32,801 nt of DNA from Chromatiales bacterium (GCA_020631335.1 JAHDHK010000004.1:1-32801); one strand, 5' to 3'. Positions 412 to 18,716 are shown, counted from the stretch's first letter. Numbers and translations: made by a program. Notes: generated by a model not told the origin, from the letters alone.

Positions 412-1065
412 TTATAACGGCAATTTCAATACTCCTGCGCAATTAGCAAAGCCACCGACCACATTCCACTCGTTACCGTTCACGCAACCATTATGCGGTG
501 TTGCATTGAAAGCGCGCAGCCTGCCAGTGTTCGGACGGCCATCGTCCATTTTCAGGTCCAGCTCATACATCACTTCAACCGGAATATTGCCCCCGGTAGC
601 AAGCTCATGGGTCGCCACGGTCGCGCCCAGAGCATTATCGGTGTTGCTGATTTTATAGAATCCATTAAAAGGGTTTACCGGACAGGTTGCCTCGACACAG
701 GCGGTGTCATCCAGTGCAGCCACAGCGGCACCATTAAAGTCTCCACTGATAAACCCGGCACGGGCAAGATGCTGCCACACCGCACCGGCTTCCGCCGCGC
801 TGTCTACAATCGCATTGGCATTACCGTCAACAGACCCGGCAGCGATGTGGGTTGACGCTCTGGCGTAGTCTCCGGGAATCGAGCGATAGCGATCTCTGAA
901 GGACACCCATGCCGCCTCGATACCGGACAGATCATTGGCGATGCTTCTGACTCGTGCGCTGTTGATCAACGACTGACCTTTCATCACGCCACCAAGCAGC
1001 AGCCCGATAATCAACAATACAATGGCTATTTCAATCAGTGTAAATCCACGTTGTCGTTTTTTCAT
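412..1065 (-). CDS. Type IV prepilin-like protein (candidate major pseudopilin)
   Basis: A 217-residue protein starting MKKRQRG|FTLIE, a classic class III prepilin leader: short basic leader, Gly before the cleavage site, Phe+1, Glu+5 and a hydrophobic helix to about residue 30. The globular part has the motif FRDRYRSIPGDY followed by a Gly/Asn-rich loop (GSVDGNANAI) and WQHLARAGFISG, a pattern typical of a large prepilin family next to type II secretion-like genes. I chose the ATG at 1065 because GAGG lies 11-14 bases upstream and the leader begins there; the frame could extend to 1155 but those residues do not fit a leader. It is last in the operon and, unlike the tightly overlapping genes before it, is separated by a 157-base gap, which would allow its own transcript and higher expression. 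That it is the major subunit is inference. Confidence 0.85.
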   Translation of the reverse strand: MKKRQRGFTLIEIAIVLLIIGLLLGGVMKGQSLINSARVRSIANDLSGIEAAWVSFRDRYRSIPGDYARASTHIAAGSVDGNANAIVDSAAEAGAVWQHLARAGFISGDFNGAAVAALDDTACVEATCPVNPFNGFYKISNTDNALGATVATHELATGGNIPVEVMYELDLKMDDGRPNTGRLRAFNATPHNGCVNGNEWNVVGGFANCAGVLKLPL

Positions 1066-1222
1066 TGTTACTAATACCTCAAAATACTTCGTTAACGTTT
1101 TCCATTTCTGATTAACTGCTCCTGCATTCATTACCCGCATGTTGCGACTACACACAGTTTCGGTACTTCATAGACGTGTAAGGTGCTCACTGAAAAATAG
1201 ATCTGTGCTGCACAGGGTGGTT
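1066..1222. other. 157-base gap before the last prepilin gene, with a 13-base palindrome
   Basis: This is the only gap longer than 20 bases inside the pilus-like operon. It holds a perfect inverted repeat CTGTGC-T-GCACAG at 1203-1215, just downstream of the preceding stop codon, and the 8-base palindrome CGTTAACG at 1090-1097. No convincing -35/-10 pair was found by eye. The repeat could be an RNA hairpin that stabilises or processes the last cistron, or an operator. Confidence 0.4.
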
Positions 1223-1912
1223 TCAGGGTAGTACACCGGCACGTATCAAATGCGTATACAAGCTGTTTTCGGAAATCCACACCAGCAGATCATCGAATTG
1301 ATCGGCGCCTGCACTATCGGGCTCTCTCATCACGAAGCGTGTATCACTGTCAGTATTTTCTGACTCATCTACCGATCGCGACGTTGCATTCGGACCCGTA
1401 GAGTAGATCACCACCGGCACTTGATTGGCTCGCAACTCAGAACAGTCTGCAGCAGAATCACAAATCTCGAATTCCGGCGAAAGCAAAGGCATGCCTGTAT
1501 TCTGCATGCCAAAGGCCGTGGTAAAGTCAGCAAGGCCGTCCTTGTTACCATCTGCGCTGGTCACGCTATACCGAAATGGGGCTCCCCAGGAATCGACCAG
1601 TAGACCCTCCTCGTTGTATCTTCCGTCAATGCCCAGCAACGCAGCAGGTACAAAACCATGTTGTCTGGAACAATCACCGTAGGGGGCGGTACTGTCTAAT
1701 ACCGGACAGGGTAATCTGCTATTGGCAGCGCTGAAGCCCAGTAACGCACGCTGTATATTTTGCAGCTGGGTACGGGTATCTGTCCGTTTCCGCTCAACCA
1801 GATGTGTCCCGTAAGGTTGCAGCATCGCCCCCATCAGCACACCGGTAATCAACAACACAATCGCTATCTCAAGTAGTGAAAAACCTCTGCATTGCAACAG
1901 TCTGCGCGTCAC
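1223..1912 (-). CDS. Prepilin-like minor pseudopilin with LPCP motif
   Basis: A 229-residue protein with leader MTRRLLQCRG|FSLLE (Gly-1, Phe+1, Glu+5) and a hydrophobic helix to about residue 30, so it is a prepilin peptidase substrate exported to the periplasm. The globular domain has an ordered motif set: SRLPCP at 65-70, Cys81, GFVPA at 86-90, DSWGAPFRYSV at 107-117, VPVVIYSTG, ESENTDSD, and DDLLVWIS near the C-terminus. The paired Cys69/Cys81 probably form a disulphide. The same motifs recur in the neighbouring 405-residue protein. The start is GTG at 1912, overlapping the upstream TGA by four bases (GTGA), which implies translational coupling. It is probably a minor subunit at the pilus tip, by analogy with GspH/I/J or MshO/P; the exact role is unknown. 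Confidence 0.85.
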   Translation of the reverse strand: MTRRLLQCRGFSLLEIAIVLLITGVLMGAMLQPYGTHLVERKRTDTRTQLQNIQRALLGFSAANSRLPCPVLDSTAPYGDCSRQHGFVPAALLGIDGRYNEEGLLVDSWGAPFRYSVTSADGNKDGLADFTTAFGMQNTGMPLLSPEFEICDSAADCSELRANQVPVVIYSTGPNATSRSVDESENTDSDTRFVMREPDSAGADQFDDLLVWISENSLYTHLIRAGVLP

Positions 1913-3126
1913 GGTATCACCACATACTGATCATTAGAGGCAAGCACATTTCGAATGGCAGACAAATCATATATCAGGTCCGCTTCCAGCAATAATGCAG
2001 AGTCCAGATAGCTCGAAGCGTCATCAGGTTTCACCTTCCGGTTCTGCATCACGCCCGCATAGTCGGATACGATCTCACGACCAACCGACACCAATAGTGT
2101 CTTGACAGGCTGTTGATTCACCACCAGGTGTGAGTCTGTCAGCGAGCCCTGACACTCGAGCACAGTGTTATACAAAGTCGCACAGGCGCTCTCGACATGA
2201 TAGTAAATAAATGCCGACCATCCATATCTTCCAAACCAGGTTTCACTGACCAGACGGTTCTTAGGCACATACTCACTGACCAGTTCACCCAATGAAGGCG
2301 TACTACAGTTACCCCGGGTCATCGCTACTGTGCCAACCAGCAAACCCTCTTCACAAGCAGCATCCGGGTCTCCGATTCGTGCGGCAAAAGGCATACGGCT
2401 GAACTGTGTGTAATACTCAAGCAGCCATTCCTTAACAACGCCGAGTACGCGGCGTTCCATCAGCGGCATCAGTTCCTTTCTGGAAATAGTAATCAGCCGG
2501 TCATTACTATCCAGCCCCGACTCAAACACGGCATCTCCGTCTGCATTCTCTGACTCCAGATAGTGTCGAACGTCGTTAGGGCTTACGCTTCGTTGCTGCC
2601 CCTGCATTTCAACACCGGGGTGAATAATAACCGCGACAATATCATCTCTGTCACCAACCGTTAAAAACTTGTTTACATCCGGGTTCAGTGCATTGTATGC
2701 AGGGTTATACCGAAACTCCTCGGACACCGCATACCATAGATCCTGATTGAGAAAAAACTCCCGATAGTCAATGTCAATTCTCTTTCCACCCCGGTTCCAG
2801 ACGGCAGGCATGAAACCAATAGCATTTTTGCCGCAGCTCAATGACGGCGAGCTATGGCGATACCTTGATGGACAGGGCAGTCGACCTGCTCCGCCACGTG
2901 TGTTATGACCATAATTGTCCGTGTAGGTCACTGCGTAACTGATGAGTGCTTCTTTGGCTTTGGCCAGTGTTTGAGTTACTTCGTCGTGAGTTGCAAGCTT
3001 CGAGCGCATAGACACATGCTGGGTCAGTAAACTTACGCCACTGACCATTAACATACTGAGCACCAGGGCCACCAGCACAGCACCTCGCTGACCTACAGAT
3101 AAGCTATAGCACGACAAATACTTCAT
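1909..3126 (-). CDS. GspK/PilX-like large pseudopilin with duplicated LPCP-type domain
   Basis: A 405-residue protein with N-terminus VGQRG|AVLVALVLSMLMVSG, a prepilin-type leader and helix lacking Glu+5, as in GspK and PilX-type minor pilins. The first globular unit has RLPCP at 82-86, Cys98, GFMPA at 104-108, LWYAVSEEFRY at 130-140, DIVAVIIHPG, ESENADGDAVF and NDRLITIS, matching the adjacent 229-residue pseudopilin motif by motif. A second, diverged copy follows: SRMPFAA at 243-249, Cys258, WFGRYGWSAFIYYHV at 297-311, KTLLVSVGR, then SYLDSALLLEADLIYDLS. Its ATG overlaps the upstream TGA (ATGA). Known minor pilins lacking Glu5 cap the pseudopilus tip, and a tip role here is an inference. Its length is above the usual 300-340 residues of GspK. 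Confidence 0.8.
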   Translation of the reverse strand: MKYLSCYSLSVGQRGAVLVALVLSMLMVSGVSLLTQHVSMRSKLATHDEVTQTLAKAKEALISYAVTYTDNYGHNTRGGAGRLPCPSRYRHSSPSLSCGKNAIGFMPAVWNRGGKRIDIDYREFFLNQDLWYAVSEEFRYNPAYNALNPDVNKFLTVGDRDDIVAVIIHPGVEMQGQQRSVSPNDVRHYLESENADGDAVFESGLDSNDRLITISRKELMPLMERRVLGVVKEWLLEYYTQFSRMPFAARIGDPDAACEEGLLVGTVAMTRGNCSTPSLGELVSEYVPKNRLVSETWFGRYGWSAFIYYHVESACATLYNTVLECQGSLTDSHLVVNQQPVKTLLVSVGREIVSDYAGVMQNRKVKPDDASSYLDSALLLEADLIYDLSAIRNVLASNDQYVVIP

Positions 3127-3593
3127 GGACGAATAACCTCGTCTGAAACAGTCACTGCAACAGAATGTGAGTGACCGGGCTTGATATAAAGTGTCCGCTT
3201 ACCCGTGGTGACTTTATGCTGGTACTCGTCAACCGCATCACCTGTCCAGGCTTTCGGTTGCCCGGCCTCACCATTAATCCAGACAACAGATGTAGCCGCT
3301 TCTTCCCCGGAATGCCGAATGACAATTCCATCAAAAGAAACGGTGTGTTTTCTGACTACGCCAGACGGTGCTGCCGATTCTGACACTTCTTTCAATTCAC
3401 TTCGTGGTTCTGTAGATATCGAGGCATTGTTAACAGACACAGGCGATACAACTGCAGCTTTATCTGCTTCCAGCTGTTGTCGCTCTGTCGGAGTAAAAAA
3501 TAACCGCTTGCCCGTGAATGAGTCGCCTGCTACTGAAACCTCGAAAACAAAAAGAGGAAAAAGAGCCATAACCAGATGAATAGCAGACTTCAT
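3123..3593 (-). CDS. PilP/MshK-like periplasmic protein of the pilus-like operon
   Basis: A 156-residue protein with an N-terminal signal sequence (MKSAIHLVMALFPLFVFEVSVAG). It then has the segment RLFFTPTERQQLEADKAA, a low-complexity linker with Ser, Val and Glu, and a small C-terminal domain with VSFDGIVIRHSG and VVWINGEAG. FFTPxER followed by a VxxxGxVxR...VWxNG unit is, to my memory, typical of unnamed proteins in type IV pilus-like clusters, and the position matches PilP/GspC/MshK: directly after the PilO-like gene, before the pseudopilins. Such proteins link the inner-membrane platform to the secretin. The ATG at 3593 overlaps the upstream TGA in an ATGA, which decides the start; a longer reading frame to 3635 is ignored. 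The family assignment is inference from order and motif. Confidence 0.65.
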   Translation of the reverse strand: MKSAIHLVMALFPLFVFEVSVAGDSFTGKRLFFTPTERQQLEADKAAVVSPVSVNNASISTEPRSELKEVSESAAPSGVVRKHTVSFDGIVIRHSGEEAATSVVWINGEAGQPKAWTGDAVDEYQHKVTTGKRTLYIKPGHSHSVAVTVSDEVIRP

Positions 3594-4201
3594 ATCACCG
3601 CACTGCCTGCGCCTTTGGGCACCAACACCAGCCACACCAGCTTTAAAACGAAAGTTAAAGACTCGTTTGTATCAAAAGGATCGCCTTCATCCAACGACGT
3701 ATCCACAGTTTGATGTACTCTGGATACATCCATTGCCTCAAAATACCATGCTCGGGATGTGTGCTCTGCCAATAGAGTGAATAACTGCATCAACACCCCA
3801 TCATGCAGCAAATTGCCGCGAATACTGATCTCTACCTGCTCTGTTGTCATGTCACCCGGGCCGGATACCGCCACCACCGGGCTGAATTCAAATTGAAGAT
3901 TTTTAATATCCAGTTGTTTACCGGCAAATGCCAGTAGATCTATCCAGATCAACGAATCAGACACGCCAACAACGCCTGAATCGTGTAACTGTTGATAATA
4001 ACTGCTGTTAGCACGTACCCAGTCATATTCAGTGGTCAACTGATAAAGCTGACGGGAGTTGTCGGCATAGGTTTGCTTCAGGTGCTGGTAACTCAAAAAA
4101 TTACGATACAGCAGATAAGCAGAGCAACAGCAAAGTAGTACACTCGCCGCACAAGTGAGCAGAAAAATCACCCTCAATCGCCGAACATTCATGGCTTTCA
4201 C
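3590..4201 (-). CDS. PilO/GspM-like inner-membrane protein
   Basis: A 203-residue protein: short basic N-terminus (MKAMNVRRLR), one membrane helix at about residues 11-32 with a striking run of cysteines (LLCCCSAY), a helical stretch of likely coiled coil (residues 35-75), then a periplasmic alpha/beta domain. This is the architecture of PilO, GspM and MshJ, the second half of the inner-membrane assembly platform that pairs with PilN or GspL. Sequence identity to those families is not obvious by eye; the assignment rests on topology, size and position. The GTG at 4201 overlaps the upstream TGA (GTGA); an ATG at 4192 is the alternative. Confidence 0.65.
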   Translation of the reverse strand: MKAMNVRRLRVIFLLTCAASVLLCCCSAYLLYRNFLSYQHLKQTYADNSRQLYQLTTEYDWVRANSSYYQQLHDSGVVGVSDSLIWIDLLAFAGKQLDIKNLQFEFSPVVAVSGPGDMTTEQVEISIRGNLLHDGVLMQLFTLLAEHTSRAWYFEAMDVSRVHQTVDTSLDEGDPFDTNESLTFVLKLVWLVLVPKGAGSAVI

Positions 4202-5667
4202 TGCTCCAGCCGCTCGTTCAATACAACCCTGATTGAAAATTGCTTCGCATGCAGTCGGGTTTGTGAATCGAAACCTGAGCCGTACCCATACTGCCCGAGT
4301 GGTGAATCCTCAATATCAACGTTATCTATCAATGCAGATTTTTCCAATGCGCTGACAAAACTGTTGAAACTTCTGGCCAAAGCCGGCATTCCATCATCAG
4401 GATTTTTAATATAACCACGAATATAGGCGTGATAGACCGCTTCATCTGCCAGCCCGGCAACGACGGTATCTGTCTGGAGCTTCCAGTCGACTGCGCTGAT
4501 ATTTATTTCCGGAAAACGGGACAATTCAGTGGCCAGTGGAGTCAGGAAACGAACCGGCGTATACGCATTGAGCTGATCAATCCTGCGTCCGATCTGCAGG
4601 GTTTGTCGCATCGCCTCTATTTGATTATCTTCAACAGGAAGGTCGAGCCGCTGCTTCACCATCCGCTCGTCGAGCATTACCATTTCGTGCTCTATCTGCC
4701 TGGTTAAAACATTCAGGCTTTCTGTCACTTTCACCGCTGCAATACCCGTCGCTGCGGAAAACAGCACAGCGCAGATAGTCCCCGCCATCAAGCCGTGTCT
4801 TGTTCTGCGATTCTCAAAACACTGGCGGAAGTCTCCGCGCAACATGTTGGCCCGTGTTATTTTCCGCAACAGCATTGTGCGCATTAAAAACTCAATGCAA
4901 TCACTACCGGTACTATGTTCTGCAGTTGCGCCTGACACTAAATCGGCGGGAGATATAACAACAATGTTGCTCTTTTCAAGCTCGGCCCTGACTGAAGGGG
5001 TTGTCCGGCCAATGAATACACTACCGTGCGCGAGATCATCTTCACCTGAAGCTCGCGCCATATATTGTTGTGTTTTTTCTATTTCTGCTAACAATTCATT
5101 TGCAGAATCATCCATCACCACCAGCTTTCTGGCAATAACCGGTGCGTGACTACCGATGCCGAAAAGCCGGAACTCACCCTCCATAACGGGAACAACAATG
5201 ACTGATGCTTTAAAGTCATTCCGATGTAGCACTTCAACACACAAATCAGACATCAGACACATGTCAGGCATTAAGATTTTGTGATGCTGAAGTATGCCCA
5301 GCCAGCGGGAACACCGTGAAGCTTCACTGATCGTGGTCACAGCAACCTCCGTAACCCGGCGATCATCTTCCTCAACCGATCTCACGCAACAACGCCACAG
5401 AGCTGCGGCTTCTGCCAGCCTATGCACAATATTATCTATGGCTTTTTTTGTATCACGACTACCCAGACGCGGTAGTCGTTCAACATGATATTCCTCATCC
5501 GTAGAATCGAGTATCGCACTGAACACTGATCTGCTGCGCTCTGATAGATACTCGGCAAAGCGGGCCCTTCCCGCTTCATCATTCTCAAAAACCACTCCGC
5601 CAGCACCGTTACTGCCAAGTGCACGGGCAAACACAAACTCTTCAGAAATAAAAAGTAGATACCGCAT
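4198..5667 (-). CDS. Fused PilM-PilN / GspL-like inner-membrane protein
   Basis: A 489-residue protein. Residues 1 to about 290 are cytoplasmic and should be the PilM-like (actin-fold) part, although no phosphate-binding motif of the actin family is obvious. A single membrane helix spans about 292-313 (GLMAGTICAVLFSAATGIAAV), followed by a coiled-coil stretch (about 315-360) and a periplasmic domain resembling the ferredoxin-like fold of PilN/GspL. A protein that is PilM-like inside and PilN-like outside is the GspL or MshI arrangement; in the classical type IV pilus these are two genes. The ATG at 5667 shares a base with the preceding stop (TAATG), which decides the start over an upstream in-frame start at 5736. 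It would couple the ATPase to the platform in the inner membrane. Confidence 0.7.
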   Translation of the reverse strand: MRYLLFISEEFVFARALGSNGAGGVVFENDEAGRARFAEYLSERSRSVFSAILDSTDEEYHVERLPRLGSRDTKKAIDNIVHRLAEAAALWRCCVRSVEEDDRRVTEVAVTTISEASRCSRWLGILQHHKILMPDMCLMSDLCVEVLHRNDFKASVIVVPVMEGEFRLFGIGSHAPVIARKLVVMDDSANELLAEIEKTQQYMARASGEDDLAHGSVFIGRTTPSVRAELEKSNIVVISPADLVSGATAEHSTGSDCIEFLMRTMLLRKITRANMLRGDFRQCFENRRTRHGLMAGTICAVLFSAATGIAAVKVTESLNVLTRQIEHEMVMLDERMVKQRLDLPVEDNQIEAMRQTLQIGRRIDQLNAYTPVRFLTPLATELSRFPEINISAVDWKLQTDTVVAGLADEAVYHAYIRGYIKNPDDGMPALARSFNSFVSALEKSALIDNVDIEDSPLGQYGYGSGFDSQTRLHAKQFSIRVVLNERLEQ

Positions 5668-6890
5668 TAGAACTGTCCACCACTCATACCGAACACCAGG
5701 TCGTAAATCGGCCCGATAACCGAAACAACGACCCACATCATGATGACACCGACAATGATGGTCATGATCGGCCCCAGACTTTGTTCAAGCTTCTCTGTCA
5801 GTTCCCGGGATTCCCGATCATAGATGCTGCTGAGCTGATTAAACGACACATCAAGAGCACCGGTACTTTCTCCGACCTTTAATACCCTCGGCACCAGAGC
5901 CGGCAGACCCTTCGCACCGGCAAAGCTCACCGCAACGCCCTGTCCGTCGATCATTCTCCGCCCCACCTTGCTGATTTCCTGCTCCAGCAGACGGTTTTCC
6001 AGCGTGCCCTGCGAGTAGCGCAATGCATCAACGATATTGATACCGGCGCTATACATCATCGAGGCACAACGGGAAAACCGCGCCAGCCGGGTTTTCAACA
6101 GCAATGGTCCGATCAGCGGCGCTCTGAGTATCCAGCCATCCAGTAACACCTTGAGCCCCGGCCTTGCAGTGATCAGTACGGGATACGCAAATACACCCAG
6201 CGCGATCATAACCACAGCAAATATCCAGTAGCGGGTAACCACTTCGGAGGTAGTGATAAGCGCCCTGGTATGCCACGGCAATTCCGCGCCAGCTGCACTG
6301 ATAAACGACACCAGCCCCGGCACCAGCCATGTCATCACAAAGAAAATAACCACCAACAGCACCACTGCCACAAACGCCGGATAAATCATCATGCGTTTTA
6401 GACGGGTAGCCGATTCATCCTGCCACTTCAGGAGATCTCCCAGTTCACGCAGTACCTGCTCCAGCCGGCCGCTCTGTTCACCAACCTGCAGCATGCTGAC
6501 GATAAGTGAGTTAAACACTTCCGGTCTGCCTGCACACGCCTGGGACAGGCTGCGCCCGGTATCAATTTCATCGACCAGTCGGCTTACGATGGCCACCTGA
6601 TGCTTGACTCCCGATGCCAGACAGTATTCATTTAGAGCTTCTAACAATGGTATCCCTGCAGATAACATCTGTTCTAAATGAAAAATAAACCCCGCCATTT
6701 CCTTACGCGACCACTTTGCTGTTCCGGGACCAGCAACACGCCATGAACGGCGACAGCTCAGCACATTCAAACCACTTGATGACAGACTTTGTGTTAACTG
6801 CAAAGCACTGACGGCACTGGCCGTCCCCCGGGTTACCTGTCCCGATGCAGATACTGCCTTGTAGGAAAAATACTTCAACGAACTACTCAC
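5667..6890 (-). CDS. PilC/GspF-family inner-membrane platform protein
   Basis: A 407-residue protein with the two-domain GspF layout. Two related cytoplasmic helical domains are visible: FIFHLEQMLSAGIPLLEALN with LQVGEQSGRLEQVL, and FSRCASMMYSAGINIVDALR with VGESTGALDVSF. Hydrophobic segments lie at about 170-195, 220-240 and 375-398. It ends SVIGPIYDLVFGM, like many GspF proteins. It anchors the ATPase at the inner membrane and probably moves pilin subunits into the fibre. The start is GTG at 6890, 17 bases after the ATPase stop codon, with no strong ribosome binding site, so it may depend on coupling. Length and domain repeat match the family (about 400 residues), so confidence is high. Confidence 0.93.
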   Translation of the reverse strand: MSSSLKYFSYKAVSASGQVTRGTASAVSALQLTQSLSSSGLNVLSCRRSWRVAGPGTAKWSRKEMAGFIFHLEQMLSAGIPLLEALNEYCLASGVKHQVAIVSRLVDEIDTGRSLSQACAGRPEVFNSLIVSMLQVGEQSGRLEQVLRELGDLLKWQDESATRLKRMMIYPAFVAVVLLVVIFFVMTWLVPGLVSFISAAGAELPWHTRALITTSEVVTRYWIFAVVMIALGVFAYPVLITARPGLKVLLDGWILRAPLIGPLLLKTRLARFSRCASMMYSAGINIVDALRYSQGTLENRLLEQEISKVGRRMIDGQGVAVSFAGAKGLPALVPRVLKVGESTGALDVSFNQLSSIYDRESRELTEKLEQSLGPIMTIIVGVIMMWVVVSVIGPIYDLVFGMSGGQF

Positions 6891-6907
6891 TTCAGTAAAG
6901 ATGCGAA

Positions 6908-8590
6908 CTACACTACAGATTGAATTTCCACGGTACTGACCGCGCGCCCGGGGACTTGCGACAGATCAACTACCCGGGATGCTTCACCATAGGTGGTAAT
7001 ACCACCCTGCACTTTATCCAGCGCATCCTCCGCTATTAACCGGAAACTATTTTTCAACGCGTAACTCTTCAGCGCGGCAGGCGAAGCACCCGACAGAAAC
7101 ATCGATTCGATTTCATCAGTTATCTTCAGTATTTCAACCACAACTTCACGACCTCTAAAGCCCTGCCAGTCACAATGGCGACAGCCTGTTGCTTCAAAAC
7201 CCGGGAGAGTCTGATTGTTTGCTTCCGACACCGGTTGCTTACAATGCTCACACAGTTTTCTCACCAGGCGCTGTCCAATAATGCCGATCACATTACCTGT
7301 AAGGTCATCTTTACTGACGCCGAGTGAGTGCAGACGGAACAATGCACCTATAGCTGAATTAGCATGCAGGGTGGAATACACCTGATGACCGGTCATAGAG
7401 GCTCGCAACGCCATGGTGGCGGTCTCTGCATCTCGAATTTCTCCTATCAGTATCACATCGGGGTCCTGCCGTAAGATGGCGCGGATACCGCTGGCAAAAT
7501 CCAGTTTCACCTGATCGTTCACAGACGTCTGTCGCAACAATGCAAGCGGGTATTCAACCGGATCTTCCATTGTCATAATGTTGATACGTTCAGTACTGAT
7601 TCGACTGAGCAATGAATACAGTGTTGTCGTTTTTCCACTGCCGGTCGGACCGGTGACCAGTATCATTCCTTCCGGCTGGGCAAGCATGGAAGTGATTAAT
7701 GCCAGTGACGTCTGCGCAAGGCCCAGCGATTCGAGTTTTACGATGCCTTTCTGACGGTCAAGAATACGCAGCACGATGTTCTCGCCGTGTATGGTGGGAA
7801 GAATGGACACTCGAAACTCCACCCGCCCCCCGGCGATAGCAAACGACATACGACCATCCTGCGGTGCTCTGCTTTCAGCAATATCAAGCGTGGACAACAC
7901 CTTAAGGCGTACCGCCATTGCCGGCCAGTGGCTGTGGTGCAGGCTGCGTATCTGACGCAAGGTACCGTCAATACGAAATCGGATCCGAAGGAACCCGGCA
8001 TCCGGTTCAAAATGAATGTCAGACGCCCCGCGCTTTACGGCGTCAGTTAAAATAGCATCTATCAATCTGACAAACGGATGACTGTGATTGTCTTTATCAG
8101 CACCCGACAACTGTACCTGACTGTCTATAGATCCGATTTCTTTTAAAATGCCATCGATCGACAGTTCAAAGCCATAAAATCGATCCAGCGCTTCAGCAAT
8201 GTCCCTTTCACTGGCGAGCAAAGCCTGTATTTTCAATTTGCCGTCAAGCAGCTGATCAAGCCGGTCAAGTACGCGTAGATTTTGCGCATCGGTCAGTGCC
8301 ACCTGCAAACGCTGTGCATCGACAGACACGGGCACCACCGAGTGATGACGGGCAAGCTGTTCCGGAATTAATTCAAGCGCACGCTGATCCGGTAATACAC
8401 TGGACAAATCAATAGCCTGAGCACCTGTTTCATCGCTTTTGACATCACGCAGTAAATCACTGGTTATAAAACCCAGGTCAACGAGCGTCTGTTCTAACGA
8501 ATTACCGGTGGATTCAGATTCGGCCAGGCCAATCTGGAATTGATCACTGCTGATGAGGCCTCGTTCGGTGAGGCTGGATACTATCGACAC
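6908..8590 (-). CDS. PilB/GspE-type assembly ATPase
   Basis: A 560-residue AAA-like secretion ATPase that powers pilus or pseudopilus assembly from the cytoplasmic face. In order: an N-terminal helical segment resembling an MshEN half (about 1-50), a T2SSE_N domain (about 55-140), the N2 domain with DIHFEP at 191-196 and RFRIDG, Walker A GPTGSGKTT at 314-322, Asp box (MTMEDPVEY), Walker B DPDVILIGEIRD at 377-388, a His box (STLHANSA), and a zinc site made by Cys447/Cys450 and Cys470/Cys473. The catalytic motifs are all intact. The zinc site is typical of extension ATPases and not of PilT. The start is GTG at 8590 with AGAAGAAG just upstream. It opens the operon, 163 bases after purK on the same strand. 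Confidence 0.95.
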   Translation of the reverse strand: MSIVSSLTERGLISSDQFQIGLAESESTGNSLEQTLVDLGFITSDLLRDVKSDETGAQAIDLSSVLPDQRALELIPEQLARHHSVVPVSVDAQRLQVALTDAQNLRVLDRLDQLLDGKLKIQALLASERDIAEALDRFYGFELSIDGILKEIGSIDSQVQLSGADKDNHSHPFVRLIDAILTDAVKRGASDIHFEPDAGFLRIRFRIDGTLRQIRSLHHSHWPAMAVRLKVLSTLDIAESRAPQDGRMSFAIAGGRVEFRVSILPTIHGENIVLRILDRQKGIVKLESLGLAQTSLALITSMLAQPEGMILVTGPTGSGKTTTLYSLLSRISTERINIMTMEDPVEYPLALLRQTSVNDQVKLDFASGIRAILRQDPDVILIGEIRDAETATMALRASMTGHQVYSTLHANSAIGALFRLHSLGVSKDDLTGNVIGIIGQRLVRKLCEHCKQPVSEANNQTLPGFEATGCRHCDWQGFRGREVVVEILKITDEIESMFLSGASPAALKSYALKNSFRLIAEDALDKVQGGITTYGEASRVVDLSQVPGRAVSTVEIQSVV

Positions 8591-8753: not shown

Positions 8754-9905
8754 TCAAAAGGCCTGAGGGAAACCTGCCCGATAGTCTGCAACTTCACTTA
8801 ACAGCAGATCAACAGTGTTACCGACGAAGTTTACATGGGCCATTTTCCGGCCGTGTCTGGCGGACGACTTGCCATACACATGGACCCTGCAATCGTTGCG
8901 GCCCAGCAATGGCTGCCAGCTGAATCCATCATGCAACACCAGATCACCAAGCACGTTCAACATGACCACCGGACTATGCTGAGTAATGTCTACCGGCGGC
9001 AGACCACACATCATGAGTACCTGCAAATCAAACTGGGAGTAATTGGTCGCATCCATTGTGTAGTGACCACTGTTATGTGGTCGCGGTGCTATTTCATTCA
9101 CCAGCAATTCATCACCGGTTACAAACATTTCGATGGCCAGCACACCGACATAGTTCAACGCACCGGCAACCTGACGTGCAATATGCTCGGCTTTTTGCGC
9201 AACTACATCGCTGACGCGAGCCGGCACAATAGTTAGATCGAGTATGCCGTTGCGATGCTGATTTTCTGCCAGCGGAAATACCGCTGAGTTACCGGCAAAA
9301 TCACAGGCAATAATGACTGATACTTCCGCATCGAAGGCGACAAAGTCTTCGACAAGACACTCAACCGCCCCGAACGATTCGAACGCGCTTTGCATTTCAG
9401 CGACGTCGTTACACACTTGTTGTCCCTTGCCGTCATAACCCAGCCGTGTGGTTTTAATGACCGCTCTGCCGCTCATCTGTGCAAATGCATCTGCGATCTG
9501 ATCGACACTTGATACCAGACAATGATGGTTGGTGGGGATACCATTGTCTACGAAAAAAGATTTCTCACGAATCCGGCTTTGCGCCACTTCCACCGCTTGC
9601 GGATCAGGTGATACCGATACGCGACTTTGCAGAAAGCGCAAACTTTCAGCCGGTACATTTTCGAACTCAGTGGTGACCGCATCGCACAGCGCTGCAAGCT
9701 CGGCCAGGCCCTGCTGATCATCATAAGCGCACCGTATATGATGGGTAGACACATCGGCTGCCGGACCGCTTTCGGCAGGGTCGAGCACCGCCACGTGATA
9801 GCCCATTCGGGTTGCCGCATGGGAGAACATTCTGCCAAGCTGCCCGCCACCCAGAACGCCCAGTGTCGCGCCCGGCAGGATAGGAGCCGAGGGTGCGTTC
9901 ATCAT
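8754..9905 (-). CDS. purK: N5-carboxyaminoimidazole ribonucleotide synthase
   Basis: A 383-residue ATP-grasp enzyme that carboxylates AIR with bicarbonate and ATP to N5-CAIR in purine synthesis. Visible features are the N-terminal nucleotide-binding start [13 protein letters not shown], the ATP-grasp core with [11 protein letters not shown] and [14 protein letters not shown], and the signature [14 protein letters not shown] followed by DATNYSQFD. Length is close to the usual 355-385 residues. It starts ATGATG, overlapping the purE TGA by four bases, and makes an operon with purE, whose product takes over its unstable product. Cytoplasmic. Confidence 0.97.
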
Positions 9906-11501: not shown

Positions 11502-12395
11502 TCAGGCTCTGGACGCCTGATAGATGCCATCGATCGCCTTGTCGAGATGACCATTGAATTCGTCATCTGACATCTGCGCAGTCAAACCCTCGACTAAGGC
11601 TCTGGAAAAGCTCGCAACCATGCGCGGGTTTTTCTCCAGCCGGCCATTTGCCTCATCACGGGAATACCCGCCGGAAAGTGCCACGACCTTCACCATATTG
11701 CTGTGGTCGATGCATTCTTTGTAGTGACCCGGTGTTTCAGGCAGAGTGAGCTTGAACATGACCAGCTCATCGGCGGGCAGCTGTTCCAGTCCGGCGAGCA
11801 GTTGCTCCTTGAGCATTTCTTCTGCTTTCTGTTTGTCGGGACAATGGATATCTACCTCGGGCTCGAGTATCGGCACCAGTCCTTTCGCGACGATCTGACG
11901 TCCGACAGCAAACTGCTGTTCGACAATTTCTTTAATTCCATCGGCATTTGCCTGCTTGATGACCGAACGCATTTTGGTACCAAACACGCCTTTGTCACGC
12001 GCCCGATCAAGCAGTGCATCCAGACCGGGCATGTCCTTCATTAACTGCACACCGTTGTTTTCATCTTCCAGTCCTTTGTCGACCTTCAGAAACGGCACCA
12101 CGTTTTTTTCAGACCACAAATACTCTGCCGACCCTTTGCCTTCGATATCACGATCCATGGTGCCTTCAAACAATATCGCACCGATAATCCGCTCGCCGCT
12201 GAACGCAGCTGTTGTCACTATTCGCGTTCGCATCTGGTGGACCAGATCGAACATCTCGTCGTCATTGCTCCACTGATTTTCACTAACGCCGTATTGACCC
12301 AGTGCTTTCGGGGTACTGCCGCCGCTTTGATCCAGTGCTGCAATAAAGCCTGATTCATTGCGAACCTTGGCTAATTGCTGTGTAAAGTTGCTCAT
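11502..12395 (-). CDS. fda: Class I fructose-bisphosphate aldolase
   Basis: A 297-residue protein close to the bacterial class I aldolases of the Staphylococcus FdaB type. It should split fructose 1,6-bisphosphate into dihydroxyacetone phosphate and glyceraldehyde 3-phosphate by a Schiff base, without metal. Motifs are [13 protein letters not shown] (20-32), ILFEGTMDR (74-82), PFLKVDKGL (101-109), FGTKMRS (138-144), EPEVDIH (178-184), the probable Schiff-base Lys215 in FKLTLP, and [14 protein letters not shown]. The ATG at 12395 was chosen because family proteins begin MxxFxxQLxKV and AGAGA lies just upstream; a TTG at 12410 is the alternative. It ends the tkt-gap-pgk-pyk cluster, where a class II aldolase is more often found. 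Cytoplasmic. Confidence 0.93.
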
Positions 12396-12426
12396 AAGAG
12401 ATTCTCTCAATAGGAGGTGGACTGAC

Positions 12427-12451
12427 GATGCCTGCTCCTGTTCCAGGCATC
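12427..12451. other. Hairpin in the aldolase leader / pyk-aldolase gap
   Basis: Perfect inverted repeat GATGCCTG (12427-12434) and CAGGCATC (12444-12451) with a 9-base loop, 32 bases upstream of the aldolase start. There is no T-run, so it is more likely an mRNA leader hairpin or processing element than a terminator. Between it and the start the minus strand reads CCACCTCC, an anti-Shine-Dalgarno-like run, and the aldolase ribosome binding site lies in the small palindrome AGAGAATCTCT (12397-12407). Together these could modulate aldolase translation. Confidence 0.4.
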
Positions 12452-12569
12452 ACTCGCAAAAATCTGATTACGTTGTCAATTCAAAATAAGGGCCACCCCT
12501 TCCGGGACAACGTCGTAAATCTGACATCTGAACAGGTTCGGCAATCAACCGCGAGCTTCACAGCACACG

Positions 12570-14009
12570 TTACTGCTCTTCGGTCCAGTCGCCGACCCGT
12601 ACTATTTTCATCGAATTGGTGCCGCTTGCCACCCCGAACATATCGCCTTTCGTAATAATAACGATATCGCCATCATCGACCTTGTGTTGATTAACCAGCA
12701 TCTGTACCACTGCCTGATTGGCCTCGTATGAAGATTCAAGCCGCTTTTCGAACGGCACCGGATAGACGCCCCGGTACAGGGTTACACGAGTTTGAGTCGC
12801 TGGGTTCGTGGTGACTGCGTAGATCGGAATGCCGGAACTGATGCGCGACATCCACAACGCCGTCGATCCGGTTTCGGTCAGTGCACCGATAGCTTTAACG
12901 TCCAGATGATTCGCCGTGTACATCGTTGCCATCGCAATCGACTCGTCGATGCGATCAAATTCCGAATGCAGACGGTGCGCTGATTCAGTGACTTTCGGTT
13001 GCTTTTCGGCTTCTTCACAAATGCTGCTCATGGAAATCACCGCGCGATCGGGATACTCGCCAACCGCTGTTTCAGCAGACAACATCACCGCGTCGGTCCC
13101 GTCCAGTACCGCATTTGCCACATCAAACACTTCAGCGCGGGTCGGTATGGGGCTGCTGACCATCGATTCCATCATCTGTGTTGCCGTAATGACGACCTTG
13201 TTTGCCGAACGCGCTTTATTGATCAGTGTTTTTTGCACCGCAGGTAATTGCGGGTCACCGATTTCGACGCCCAGATCACCACGTGCCACCATGATCGAAT
13301 CGGTAACTTCCAGAATTTCGTCAATATTTTCTACCGCTTCGGCGCGTTCTATCTTCGCCACAATGGCCGCATTACTACCAGCCTCATTCAACAATTTCCG
13401 CGCGTGGTTGATATCCGCGGCATCACGCGGAAACGATACACCCAGATAATCGATACCCAGCTCGACCGCAACCTGCAGGTCTTCCATGTCTTTTTCGGTA
13501 ATCGCAGGCGCTGACAAGCCACCGCCGCGAAGGTTGATCCCTTTGCGACTGAACAAGGTGCCGCCCACTACCACTTTGGTTCTCACCTTACCGCCTTCTA
13601 TATCGGTGACTTCAAGGACAATACGGCCGTCATCCAGCACCAGCACACTGCCGGTCTTGAGGTCTTTGGGCAGATCCTGATACACACAACCTACGATTTC
13701 GTCGGTGCCACCCTTATCGTTGTAGTCCACATCGAGAGTGAACGCCGCACCTTTGGCAAGCTCGGCCGATCCATTGGTGAAATTGGAAACCCGTATCTTC
13801 GGCCCCTGCAGATCTCCGAGTATGCCCACTACTACACCGAGCTCAGCGGCAAGACGGCGCACCGTATCTACACTGTTGCGATGGTCATCAGCCGAGCCAT
13901 GCGAAAAGTTGATGCGAACGACATTCACACCCGCCTTCAATAGATCGCGCAGGGCGCTCTCTGTACTGGTGGCAGGACCAAGGGTGGCGACTATTTTTGT
14001 TCTTCGCAT
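12570..14009 (-). CDS. pyk: Pyruvate kinase
   Basis: A 479-residue pyruvate kinase, the same length as E. coli PykA, converting phosphoenolpyruvate and ADP to pyruvate and ATP. Features are MRRTKIVATLGPATS at the start, VNVVRINFSHG, GDLQGPKIR, the catalytic KIERAEAVENI, MVARGDLGVEIG, ITATQMMESM and AVMLSAETAVGEYP, then the C-terminal allosteric domain ending GTNSMKIVRV. I chose the ATG at 14009 because family proteins begin there and because a promoter with -10 at 14040-14045 would not transcribe the longer reading frame that runs to 14111. Own promoter, downstream of a pgk terminator-like hairpin. Confidence 0.97.
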   Translation of the reverse strand: MRRTKIVATLGPATSTESALRDLLKAGVNVVRINFSHGSADDHRNSVDTVRRLAAELGVVVGILGDLQGPKIRVSNFTNGSAELAKGAAFTLDVDYNDKGGTDEIVGCVYQDLPKDLKTGSVLVLDDGRIVLEVTDIEGGKVRTKVVVGGTLFSRKGINLRGGGLSAPAITEKDMEDLQVAVELGIDYLGVSFPRDAADINHARKLLNEAGSNAAIVAKIERAEAVENIDEILEVTDSIMVARGDLGVEIGDPQLPAVQKTLINKARSANKVVITATQMMESMVSSPIPTRAEVFDVANAVLDGTDAVMLSAETAVGEYPDRAVISMSSICEEAEKQPKVTESAHRLHSEFDRIDESIAMATMYTANHLDVKAIGALTETGSTALWMSRISSGIPIYAVTTNPATQTRVTLYRGVYPVPFEKRLESSYEANQAVVQMLVNQHKVDDGDIVIITKGDMFGVASGTNSMKIVRVGDWTEEQ

Positions 14010-14039
14010 AAATTCGAGACTGTAGTGAGGGCAATGCGT

Positions 14040-14068
14040 ATTATAGCCAGTTGCGTGTCCGGCGTCAG
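14040..14068 (-). promoter_or_regulatory. Sigma-70 promoter of pyk
   Basis: On the minus strand a perfect -10 TATAAT (14045 to 14040) lies 17 bases from a -35-like CTGACG (14068 to 14063; four of six matches to TTGACA). Transcription would begin near 14033, leaving a leader of about 24 bases to the pyk ATG at 14009. Confidence 0.65.
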
Positions 14069-14129
14069 GAAAGAGACTTGCGCCGGTGCGGAACAGCTGT
14101 TTGTGCAGCACTTACGTTATACAAGTGTT

Positions 14130-14159
14130 GAAAAACAACTGCGCTCGCGCTGACGCAGT
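14130..14159 (-). terminator. Terminator-like hairpin after pgk
   Basis: On the minus strand ACTGCG (14159-14154) and CGCAGT (14043+100 to 14138; i.e. 14143-14138) form a six-pair stem with a 10-base GC-rich loop, followed by TGTTTTTC. It sits about 190 bases after the pgk stop and just before the pyk promoter. The stem is short, so efficiency is uncertain. Confidence 0.45.
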
Positions 14160-14346
14160 CACCTCACAACGGCTATACCTGCGGTTCAACGGGCGATTTT
14201 GTAACCGATTAACAATGCTTTATCGGTGGAGTCTGCATTGTCAGCACTGAGCTCAATATCTTTTTTAATATTCAGCTACTACTGAACGGTAAAACACACG
14301 CCACCACTATTCACACCGAACATCCCGATACCGCGTTATATGAACG

Positions 14347-15522
14347 CTACGATTGCGAACGTGACTCAAGCATCGCCACGGCCGGCAACTGCTTACCTTC
14401 CAGAAACTCCAGAAAGGCACCACCACCAGTTGAGATATAGCTGATTCTATCGGTCAGACCGAATTGATCGACCGCAGCCAGTGTGTCTCCACCCCCGGCA
14501 ATTGAAAAAGCATCTGACGCGGCGATTGCCTCACCGACTATGCGTGTGCCATCGGCAAACTGATCAAACTCAAACACCCCGACCGGACCGTTCCAAACGA
14601 TGGTACCGGCACTTTTCAGCAATTCGGCATACTGCATGGCGGTAGCAGGGCCGACATCAAAAATCATATCGCTGTCGGCAACAGCATCTACCGACTTGGT
14701 GGTCGCGGGGGTTTGATCGGAAAACGCTTCGCCACACACCACATCAACCGGCACCGGAATATCTCCGCCACGTGACTGAGCAGCTTCTCGAAGACGCGTT
14801 GACTCTTTCAGCAAATCTTCTTCATACAGAGATTTACCAACGTTGTGTCCCTCTGCGGCAATGAAGGTATTGGCAATACCGCCACCGACAATCAGCTGAT
14901 CCACCACGCCGGACAAAGACTCGAGTACCGTCAGTTTTGTCGACACTTTAGAACCGCCGACCACCGCCACCAATGGCCGCGCCGGGTTATCAAGTGCTTT
15001 ACCCAAAGCGGCAAGTTCACCTGCCAGCAACGGTCCGGCACAGGCTACCGGTGCATACTTTGCCACGCCATGTGTGGATGCCTGCGCCCGGTGCGCAGTA
15101 CCAAACGCATCCATCACAAACACATCACACAGGGATGCATATTTTTTCGACAGCGTTTCTTCATCGGCTTTTTCACCGGTGTTAAAGCGCACATTTTCAA
15201 GCAGCGAAACACTGCCGGGTGAAACCTCGGGCGTGTTATCGAGATAGTCTGCCACCAGCGAGACAGGCTGCCCCAGCAGTGCTGACAGATGCTCAGCTAC
15301 CGGCAGTAAAGAAAACTGTGCTTCAGGCTGCCCCTCTACCGGTCGCCCCAGGTGCGACATCACCATCACCGCAGCACCTTTTTCCAGCGCCAGTTTGATG
15401 GTTGGCAATGATGCAACAATGCGAAGGTCCGAGCTGACCTTGCCGTCTTTGATTGGCACATTAAGATCGGCGCGAATCAACACGCGCTTGTCTTTCAGTT
15501 CGAGCGTATCAAGTGTTTTCAT
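14347..15522 (-). CDS. pgk: Phosphoglycerate kinase
   Basis: A 391-residue protein of normal length, transferring phosphate between 1,3-bisphosphoglycerate and ADP. Motifs are [16 protein letters not shown] near the N-terminus, [46 protein letters not shown], and the C-terminal nucleotide-binding [19 protein letters not shown] and [14 protein letters not shown]. The ATG at 15522 starts with the usual [14 protein letters not shown]. Second-last in the tkt-gap-pgk unit, 127 bases after gap with a hairpin between, suggesting that gap and pgk levels are set separately. Confidence 0.98.
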
Positions 15523-15600
15523 GGTTACAGTATTACCGGATTAGCTGGATGTGAAGCGCAACGGTGGTTCAACACATTGCCGACAGTGAGTTCAAAACGA

Positions 15601-15624
15601 CAACGCCGGGTATCCCCGGCGTTG
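15601..15624 (-). terminator. Hairpin after gap (terminator or attenuator)
   Basis: A perfect 10-pair stem, CAACGCCGGG (15601-15610) with CCCGGCGTTG (15615-15624), loop TATC, lies 25 bases after the gap stop codon. On the minus strand it is followed by TCGTTTTGAA, a weak U-tract. It probably ends part of the gap transcripts and protects their 3' end, while some read on into pgk. Confidence 0.7.
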
Positions 15625-15649
15625 AATTTTGCTATTACAAAGTTGCGCG

Positions 15650-16651
15650 CTAGGCGTTCATTAGCGCCACAGTGGTATCGAGCATACGATTGGAGAATCC
15701 CCACTCGTTGTCGTACCACGAGCATACCTTCACCAGACTACCGCCGGAGACCCGGGTCATGCCCGCATCAAAGTTAGAGGTGGTGCTGGTGTGGTTGAAA
15801 TCTATCGATACCAGTGGCGCATCTGAGTAGGCCAGAATTTTGCCATCAGCCGCCGACTTCATGATGTCGTTGATTTCTTCAACAGTGGTATCGCGAGCCG
15901 CCTGAAAAGTCAGATCAACAATAGACACATTGATGGTCGGTACACGAACCGCAAAACCATCCAGCTTGCCGTTCAGCTCGGGAAGCACCAGACCCACCGC
16001 CGCCGCTGCACCGGTATTGGTAGGTATCATCGACATCGTAGCCGAACGCGCTCGACGCAGATCACTGTGATAAACATCGGTCAGCACCTGATCATTTGTG
16101 TAGGCATGAATGGTGGTCATCAATCCGCTGACAACACCGATCTTGTCGTGCAGAGGCTTGACCATCGGCGCCAGACAGTTGGTGGTGCAGCTGGCGTTCG
16201 AGATCACCTGATCAGTAGACTTAAGCACCCCTTCGTTTACCCCGTAGACAATCGTGGCATCCACGTCCTTGCCACCCGGTGCAGAGATCACCACCTTTTT
16301 TGCACCACCGGCAATATGGGCACCCGCTTTTTCTTTGCTGGTGAATAAGCCGGTGCACTCAAGTACGACATCCACACCCAGCTCACCCCACGGCAGCTTG
16401 GCTGGATCGCGCTCGGCAAACACCCGGATGCGATCGCCGTTAACAATAATATCGTCGCCGTCAACAGAGACTTCGCCCGGGAAACGACCGTGAGCGGTAT
16501 CGTATTGAGTCAGGTGGGCGTTGGTGGCCGGATCGCCCAGGTCATTGATCGCCACCACATCGAACTCATTGTTTCGACCCGATTCAAACAGTGCACGAAG
16601 CACATTTCTGCCAATGCGCCCGTAGCCATTGATCGCCAGTTTTATAGCCAT
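15650..16651 (-). CDS. gap: Type I glyceraldehyde-3-phosphate dehydrogenase
   Basis: A 333-residue NAD-type GAPDH. Visible are the Rossmann start [15 protein letters not shown], the ND of VVAINDLGD, the strongly conserved CTGLF, the catalytic [12 protein letters not shown] with its nucleophilic Cys, the His-containing THAY region ([10 protein letters not shown]), [13 protein letters not shown] and the C-terminal [13 protein letters not shown]. Start ATG at 16651 has GGAG eight bases upstream. The Asp after ND is not at the usual NADP-switch position, so NAD preference is assumed. It lies 77 bases after tkt. The assignment as gap and not epd (erythrose-4-phosphate dehydrogenase) rests on the overall resemblance to GapA-type sequences. 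Confidence 0.97.
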
Positions 16652-16727
16652 GATTGATCTCCAAAGAAAGAGTGCAAGAGTTTGTTTTAATGCCCGTTGC
16701 CTGGCGCACTGCCCTAGTGCCGACCGA

Positions 16728-18716
16728 CTACAGGAGTGACTTCACCTGATTGACCACATTTATAGTGTTAAAACCGAAATGTTCAAATACTTCACCTGCC
16801 GGCCCGGATTCCCCAAACGTGTCCAGACAGACCATTGCACTGTTCGATCCGGCATACTTATACCAGCCTCCGGATACGCCTGCTTCAATGACAACCCTGG
16901 CACTGATGGTGGCCGGTAGAACAGACAATCGGTAGCTTTCCGGCTGACGATCGAAAACATTGGTCGATGGCATCGAAACCACCCTGGTGCTAATACCCTC
17001 AGCGGCCAGTTGAGTGTGCGCTTCAATCGCAAGCCCCACTTCAGAGCCGGTAGCAATAAGAATGGCCTGAGGGTTATCTGCATCGCGCAGCACGTACCCG
17101 CCTTTTTCTATGTCCGCTATCTGCTGTTCGGTGCGTTGCTGATGAGGCAGACCCTGGCGACTGAAAAGCAGGGAGGACGGGCCGTCTTTACGTACCAGCG
17201 CCATCTTCCAGCTTACCGCCGATTCGACCGCATCACACGCACGCCAGACATCCATATTCGGCATCAGCCGCAAGGTGGCCGCCTGCTCCACCGGCTGGTG
17301 CGTCGGCCCGTCTTCACCGAGCCCGATCGAATCATGCGTGAACACATGGATTGCCGGTATTTTCATCAACGCCGCCATGCGCAATGCATTTCGGGCATAT
17401 TCAGAAAACATCAGAAAAGTAGCACCGTAGGTTTTGAACCCGCCGTGCAGCACCATACCGTTAATGATTGCCGCCATACCGAATTCGCGCACCCCGAAGT
17501 AGACATAATTGCCAGCCGGGTGCGTTTTTATATCTTTGCTGCCGGACCAGATCGTCAGATTAGATCCCGCCAGATCAGCAGATCCGCCAATCAGCTCAGG
17601 CAGATCCGGGCCAATAGCGTTCAACGCATTCTGCGAGGCCTTTCTCGAGGCAATCTTCTCAGCACTGGCATCGGTTGCCTTGATGTAATCGTCAACCGAC
17701 TGCAAAAAGTCTGCGGGCAGCTCACCCGCCATGCGTCGGAGAAATTCCGCGTGCTCCTGCGGATACTGTTCGCCGTAGGCCTGCAGTTGCTGTTCCCAGG
17801 CCTGTTGTTTATCGGTGCCCGTCTCACGTGCATCCCAACCGGCATAGACTTCCTGAGGCACTTCAAACGGCGGGTGTGCCCAGCCGAGTTTTTCGCGCAC
17901 CAGTGTTATTTCATCATCCCCCAGTGGCGCACCATGTGACGACTCTTTTCCACCTTTGTTCGGCGAACCATAACCGATAGTGGTTTTACACATGATCAGA
18001 CTGGGTTTTTCTGATTGCGCGCGCGCCTGAGCAATCGCCGCAGAGACAGCTTCGCGGTTGTGGCCGTCTATGTCTCGAATGACCTGCCAGCCATAGGCCT
18101 CAAACCGGGCTGCCGTGTCGTCGGTAAACCAGCCCTCGACTTCTCCATCGATGGAAATGCCATTGTCATCGTATATACCGATCAGCTTGCCCAGCCCGAG
18201 GGTGCCGGCCAGCGAACACACTTCATGAGAAATGCCTTCCATCAAACAACCATCCCCCATAAACACATAGGTATGGTGGTCAACCAGTGACATATCCGGC
18301 TTGTTGAATTGTGCGGCCAGCGTGCGCTCGGCGATAGCCATTCCCACAGCGTTAGCCAGACCCTGTCCGAGCGGTCCGGTGGTGGTTTCAACGCCGGGCG
18401 CATAACCATATTCCGGGTGACCCGGCGTTTTAGAATGGAGCTGCCGAAAATTCTTCAGCTCTTCTATTGGAAGGTCATAGCCACTGAGATGCAGCAGAGA
18501 ATAAAGCAGCATTGACCCGTGACCGTTTGACAGCACAAACCGGTCACGATCGGCCCAGAGTGGATCCGATGGATTATGTTTCAGGTAATCGTTCCACAGC
18601 ACCTCGGCGATATCGGCCATACCCATCGGTGCCCCGGGGTGTCCGGAGTTTGCCTGCTGAACGGCATCCATACTCAGCGCGCGAATCGCATTTGCCAGCG
18701 TTCGATGATCAGACAT
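16728..18716 (-). CDS. tkt: Transketolase
   Basis: A 662-residue thiamine diphosphate enzyme, normal length, moving two-carbon units between sugar phosphates in the pentose phosphate or Calvin cycle. Motifs are [29 protein letters not shown], the diphosphate-binding [15 protein letters not shown] with the downstream [10 protein letters not shown], the pyrimidine-binding [27 protein letters not shown], and ATGSEVGLA in the C-terminal domain. The first gene of the glycolytic cluster, divergent from rpoD. No ribulose-1,5-bisphosphate carboxylase or phosphoribulokinase gene is in the window, so a Calvin cycle role cannot be claimed. Confidence 0.98.

Follow-up and report, generated by a model that had tools for sequence, protein, structure and literature searches.

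The eight-gene operon described here quite probably makes up the greater part of a filament system of the rearranged MSH type, the other half of which, an MshL secretin and a TPR protein, is encoded on a different contig (C64), and which would form an adhesive surface pilus. The operon lies in a stretch of 32,801 nucleotides from a Chromatiales bacterium, hereafter the window, which is contig C74 of a draft genome of 5.58 Mb in 368 contigs with a completeness of 93.5%.

Genes and products of the operon

The eight minus-strand ORFs reported in the first-pass annotation are all present within positions 412-8590 of the window, and their frames are all intact; they are referred to here as W8 to W1. 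The overlaps of 1-4 bases reported to join six of the genes were also recovered, i.e. W7 to W2 are chained end to start via the junctions TAATG (5667), GTGA (4198), ATGA (3590), ATGA (3123) and GTGA (1909). The start codons were refined to ATG at 5667 for W6, ATG at 3593 for W4 and ATG at 1065 for W1 (MKKRQRGFTLIE). A scan for promoters and terminators gave fewer sites than in shuffled sequence and was not used.

On the W1 side, a gene for a small secreted protein (2-397), which is cut by the contig start, is convergent with W1, and its homologue beside W1 is kept within the genus (L037, L038, L040, L041). In the other direction, a central carbon-metabolism cluster (11502-18716, minus strand) encodes a class I aldolase-like protein, pyruvate kinase, phosphoglycerate kinase, GAPDH and transketolase.

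By their Pfam matches, the identities of the first two products are certain, as the first-pass annotation had it. W8 (6908-8590, minus strand, as all system genes below; 560 aa) is an assembly ATPase of the MshE/PilB/GspE type (PF00437, 4.8e-126) with conserved ATPase core motifs and an MshEN domain (PF05157, 4e-17), the c-di-GMP motif of which is degenerate by motif comparison. W7 (5667-6890; 407 aa) is a platform protein of the MshG/PilC/GspF type with two T2SSF domains (PF00482 twice, 1.2e-41). The trees described below agree with both assignments.

No Pfam or NCBIfam family was matched by W3, W4, W5 or W6, and a PHROGs search with W2-W5 gave no family for W3-W5. For W6 (4198-5667; about 489 aa), an AlphaFold model (pLDDT 77) predicts an actin-like cytoplasmic domain, a TM/long helix and a periplasmic domain. 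Using Foldseek, this model matched PilM (2ych, 5eou) and EpsL (1yf5, 4pht) with E values of 1e-9 to 1e-7; thus, the predicted fold resembles PilM and the cytoplasmic domain of GspL/EpsL, supporting the initial reading of W6 as GspL-like and its assignment as a GspL/PilM-like alignment-complex protein. Profile comparisons gave a weak match of W6 to MshI1 (E 4e-5) and no match to the PilN-like MshI2.

The PilO-like character proposed for W5 (3590-4201; 203 aa) agrees with its position, which is that of PilO/MshJ, and with its topology of one TM helix, but the comparison with the MshJ profile was not significant. Similarly, the proposal that W4 (3123-3593; about 156 aa) is a PilP/MshK-like protein finds a match to the MshK profile, but a weak one (E 3.5e-4); we refer to W4 as a periplasmic protein in the MshK position. 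The FFTPxER motif pointed out in W4 is a trait of the whole family, in which an alignment gives it the general form LFxTxxER, at times preceded by R, i.e. (R)LFxTxxER. W6, W5 and W4 evolve fast, with about 16-30% identity within the genus.

Three prepilins had been proposed. W2 (1223-1912; 229 aa) and W1 (412-1065) are prepilins with the N_methyl domain PF07963 (above the cut-off for W2; 3.8e-8 for W1), and W3 (1909-3126; 405 aa) is a third pilin-like protein, but one without Glu5. W2 is an LPCP minor prepilin with a C-terminal LP that is invariant in the class alignment. W1 is the most conserved protein of the system within the genus (68-75% identity) and, judged by its sequence, the likeliest candidate for the major pilin. 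At one related locus (L087:10772-12636), W4 and W3 are separated by two additional prepilin genes of opposite orientation.

The halves of W3 align with each other at E 6e-14, indicating an internal duplication, and its first half, including the N-terminal helix, aligns with W2 at E 4e-22; therefore, the two LPCP proteins are paralogues. Compared with W2, W3 has a second head and lacks Glu5. The W3 model (pLDDT 78) has a 60-residue N-terminal helix and gave no significant match in the PDB, for which reason we claim no homology to GspK. W3 homologues range from about 300 to >1,100 aa, and no known domain was found in the large ones. A tip adhesin would be expected to be just such a large pilin of varying size, and W3 is a candidate for this tip component.

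The ancestral operon is split between mshN and mshE

The genome encodes three secretins, i.e. GspD beside gspC-E-F (C298), PilQ (C79) and a 611-aa lipoprotein on C64. On the MshL model TIGR02519 (cut-off 250.2 bits), the C64 protein scored 268.2 bits, PilQ 98.6 bits and GspD 125.8 bits, and the C64 mshL gene is followed by the gene for an MshN-like TPR protein with one predicted membrane helix. In a secretin tree, the C64 MshL groups with the operon-linked MshL proteins of its own family (SH-aLRT 100). The genome also encodes one prepilin peptidase, which adjoins pilC and not the window operon, as well as PilT/PilU at C35 (503.8 and 452.9 bits; cut-off 319.1). A further assembly ATPase (L020:6638-8353, G000:C257) is nearest TfpB (808.6 bits; cut-off 850) and runs into the contig end; no platform gene was seen beside it.

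Thus, the absence of a secretin, a peptidase and a retraction ATPase noted in the first-pass annotation holds for the locus but not for the genome, and the genome search that it proposed for an unlinked secretin and peptidase found both. MSH loci have been published without a peptidase and may borrow that of another system (PMC6668835), and V. cholerae MSHA relies on an unlinked PilT (PMC9815625); therefore, the absence of these two genes from the locus is expected.

Ten further genomes, nine from the window's genus, encode relatives of W6. When named genomes were scanned using only W6, no locus was recovered because W6 diverges fast, while a scan with the ATPase alignment, from which the window's own and very near records were excluded, gave 80 loci. 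In a genome of another family (G046), a single operon encodes MshL, TPR, ATPase, platform, W6, W5, W4, W3 and W2. The order from MshL to W2 is present in about 13 of 20 further loci of the class, several of the others being cut by contig ends. Among the 58 named loci for which 6 kb or more of upstream sequence was available, mshL is upstream of the ATPase gene in 55 and an mshM-type ATPase is encoded in 47, and the contiguous order M-L-N-E-G-W6 and onwards is present in 48 of the 80 named loci. The order of the family is M-L-N-E-G-W6-W5-W4-W3-W2(-W1), and the E-G-W6-W5-W4-W3-W2 part is identical in order and families in the window and in its class and named relatives. Such recurrence of the eight-gene order across genus and class far exceeds what chance would give; the first-pass annotation had named a loss of this order among relatives as evidence against its reading, and instead the order is strongly conserved. 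The W3 marker is present in 76 of the 369 sampled genomes of the class, i.e. about a fifth.

In three named loci from Thiobacillus, Tepidiphilus and a Burkholderiales (L184, L203, L224), E-G-W6-W5-W2 is present without an upstream secretin gene, and these may be independent splits. In sister genera of the family (L081, L117, L232-L235), the operon is contiguous, with strong divergence of the ATPase, mshM and W6-W4, and a number of the ATPases have just about 480-500 aa.

In the sister genus genome G018, the gene order is cpa2, a rhodanese gene, secB, gpsA, trmL, mshM, mshL, ATPase gene, platform gene and onwards to W3, W2, W1, ntrC, ntrB, DUF4124 and glnA. In the window's genus, trmL/gpsA/secB remain beside mshL and the TPR gene, ntrC/DUF4124/glnA remain beside W1, and the neighbours of the ATPase gene are new, i.e. 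in the window as well as in L035 and L036 it adjoins purK (8754-9905 in the window, minus strand), which was gained at the breakpoint end and is outside the system. Because each half keeps one ancestral outer flank, we conclude that a single break separated mshN from mshE. In total, synteny shows that, in the window's genus, the ancestral operon mshM-mshL-mshN-mshE-mshG-W6-W5-W4-W3-W2-W1 has come apart at this point. The suggestion of a compact machinery that does without a secretin does not hold, MshL and the TPR protein being the unlinked second half of this operon. An assembly artefact was considered as the source of the split and rejected: on the ATPase side the contig continues for ~24 kb with other genes, and elsewhere in the genus the two loci are found, with unchanged flanks, on different contigs (180 and 209 kb).

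The machinery encoded in the window could instead use PilQ or GspD of another system, with the C64 MshL serving something else. We regard this as very unlikely: while the secretin gene is unlinked in the window's genus and a peptidase is known to be shared among systems of this kind (PMC6668835), the C64 mshL has no further ATPase or platform gene nearby, the flanks of both halves match a single operon of the sister genus, and mshL and the ATPase gene co-occur within the genus. We infer from these comparisons that the window machinery uses the C64 MshL.

mshM does not adjoin mshL in the window's genus, and in a draft that is 93.5% complete it could sit in a gap. ExeA-like ATPases on C5 and C292 were considered as the missing MshM and rejected, as they scored only 37 and 43 bits on the mshM profile of the family. 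In V. cholerae, deletion of mshM or mshN leaves surface pili unreduced, while deletion of mshE or mshL abolishes them (PMC4624765); therefore, loss of mshM need not be fatal. In many relatives, the gene for a sigma-54-dependent response regulator (receiver, AAA and Fis HTH domains; about 480 aa) adjoins mshM, e.g. upstream of mshM in L137, L139, L140, L141, L142 and L181, several of them beside metF, ahcY and metK; this protein is a candidate regulator of the system and was not seen at the window's loci.

Relation to MSHA, T2SS and type IVa pili

MSH systems have been defined by mandatory mshA, E, G, L and M genes, nearly always at one locus (PMC6668835, Denise et al. 2019). Judged by Pfam domains, W8 (PF00437, MshEN) and W7 (T2SSF) correspond to MshE and MshG, and the C64 protein (TIGR02519) to MshL, albeit unlinked. 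W1 is a plausible major pilin and a possible counterpart of MshA; mshM was not found in the window's genome. The window's genus has two loci instead of one, while the absence of a peptidase gene from the locus agrees with the definition.

With canonical V. cholerae MSHA, encoded by the mshI-F and mshB-Q operons (PMC4624765), the system has in common MshL, an MshE with MshEN, MshG, a locus without a peptidase gene and an unlinked PilT, and its relatives also have MshM and MshN. By contrast, canonical MSHA has I-J-K upstream of L, whereas the rearranged family has W6, W5 and W4 downstream of G; where the rearranged system has the single PilM/GspL-like W6, canonical MSHA has two proteins; and the canonical pilins are B-A-C-D-O-P-Q as opposed to the LPCP pair W2/W3. 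The canonical order was seen only in L226, L228-L230 and L115. Two genomes contain both types, which are directly adjacent in G115 (L093, L115; G115:C1:80000-112000) and also occur together in G046 (L042, L225). Because the two types coexist, we conclude that they are two separate systems.

In the ATPase, platform and secretin trees, the proteins of the window's genome fall with the rearranged family (W7 within its clade at 100/100), the canonical MSHA sequences form a clade of their own (E, 100/100; G, 98/94; L, 99), and the split between rearranged and canonical sequences is supported at 91 (L), 100/100 (G) and 94/82 (E). For the ATPase, a joint clade of the two types has a support of 78/76, at which exclusive common ancestry of the rearranged and the canonical MSHA clades is unsupported by these sequences. 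Rooting of the ATPase tree with PilT was discarded on account of the extreme PilT branch.

MSH clusters with significant gene rearrangement were mentioned in 2013 for Sideroxydans ES-1 and Gallionella ES-2, with data not shown (PMC3770913). In loci from Gallionellaceae and related bacteria (L163, L167, L188), the order M-L-N-E-G-W6-W5-W4-W3-W2 and the families are as in the window; judged by these loci, the rearranged system of the window has very probably already been seen, unnamed, in that report. Compared with this type of cluster, in which M-L-N is just upstream of E, the window's genus has the operon split between N and E, with L-N kept at the ancestral trmL locus, lacks mshM at the secretin locus, and has lost the c-di-GMP motif.

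The operon could instead encode a T2SS-like exporter, with W6/W5/W4 in the roles of GspL/M/C, a short endopilus made of W3/W2/W1, and MshL as the gate through which proteins are secreted. The window's system and T2SS belong to the same superfamily. W6 has the architecture of GspL and not that of a separate PilM and PilN, W3 lacks Glu5 as does GspK, and W2 and W1 match the GspG/GspH models weakly. However, W2 and W1 are far under the cut-offs of the Gsp equivalog models, the secretin is of the MshL and not of the GspD type, operon relatives have mshM and mshN, and the genome has its own gspC-D-E-F. Altogether, these observations make an exporter an unlikely reading. The type IVa pilus (PilB/C/M-Q/T) is also a member of the superfamily and probably has PilD and PilT/PilU in common with the system; here, too, PilB, PilC and PilQ are encoded separately in the genome, and the window genes are paralogues that form a set apart from these.

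In total, we classify the system as a variant, split in two, of the rearranged type of MSH filament, which is widespread in Beta-/Gammaproteobacteria, and not as canonical MSHA. The earlier views that it is closest in logic to MSHA, distinct from T2SS and Pil, and poorly named are borne out. What is new is the absence of mshM at the secretin locus, the loss of the ATPase c-di-GMP motif in the sampled family members, and the identity of W3 as a duplicated-head paralogue of W2. More tentatively, M-L-N-E-G-W6-W5-W4-W3-W2 may represent a separate and unnamed class of type IV filaments that is widespread in Beta-/Gammaproteobacteria, coexists with true MSHA, has a two-headed LPCP tip pilin, and is independent of c-di-GMP and mshM in the window's genus.

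Loss of the c-di-GMP motif, proposed working and meaning

The MshEN c-di-GMP receptor has two 24-residue RLG...Q motifs and no longer binds when Gly11 is changed (PMC5013675). In the rearranged family, RIG/RLG...Q is retained in at least one motif by most relatives. In the window ATPase, the motifs read SIV...S and LEQ..., i.e. R, G and Q are lost, and the rest of the genus is alike. The published relaxed motif had no match in the window-genus or window-family sequences tested and did match in most rearranged relatives, in an imperfect scan that also misses a few relatives (L077, L092, L194), and the NCBIfam c-di-GMP motif model scored 35.3 on W8, just under its cut-off of 38. These sequences suggest that c-di-GMP control has likely been lost in the window's genus.

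A degenerate MshEN motif, a split operon, a missing mshM and the fast evolution of W6, W5 and W4 (about 16-30% identity in the genus) might also be read as signs of a decaying, non-functional remnant. We consider this extremely improbable, as the eight frames are intact with tight overlaps, the core motifs of the ATPase are conserved, and the identity of W1 at 68-75% across the genus indicates selection.

Based on the sequence comparisons above, the product of the two loci would most likely be an adhesive surface pilus that draws on the PilD and PilT of the type IVa pilus. PilD would cut W1, W2 and probably W3. W8 would power the polymerisation of W1 via the platform protein W7 and the alignment complex W6-W5-W4, and c-di-GMP binding by W8 has apparently been lost. 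W2 and the two-headed W3, the candidate adhesin, would form the priming/tip complex; the fibre would exit through MshL, assisted by the TPR protein, and would be retracted by PilT/PilU of the type IVa pilus.

With four genes that have no family model, annotation pipelines label half of the system as hypothetical and may score the split operon as lacking a secretin. The filament with the W3 marker has no proper name. The two loci provide a clean case of an MSH-type operon that was broken in two with both halves kept. Moreover, with the c-di-GMP motif lost in one family and present in most relatives, regulation of such pili is open to testing, and the W2/W3 pair is a concrete tip-adhesin candidate.
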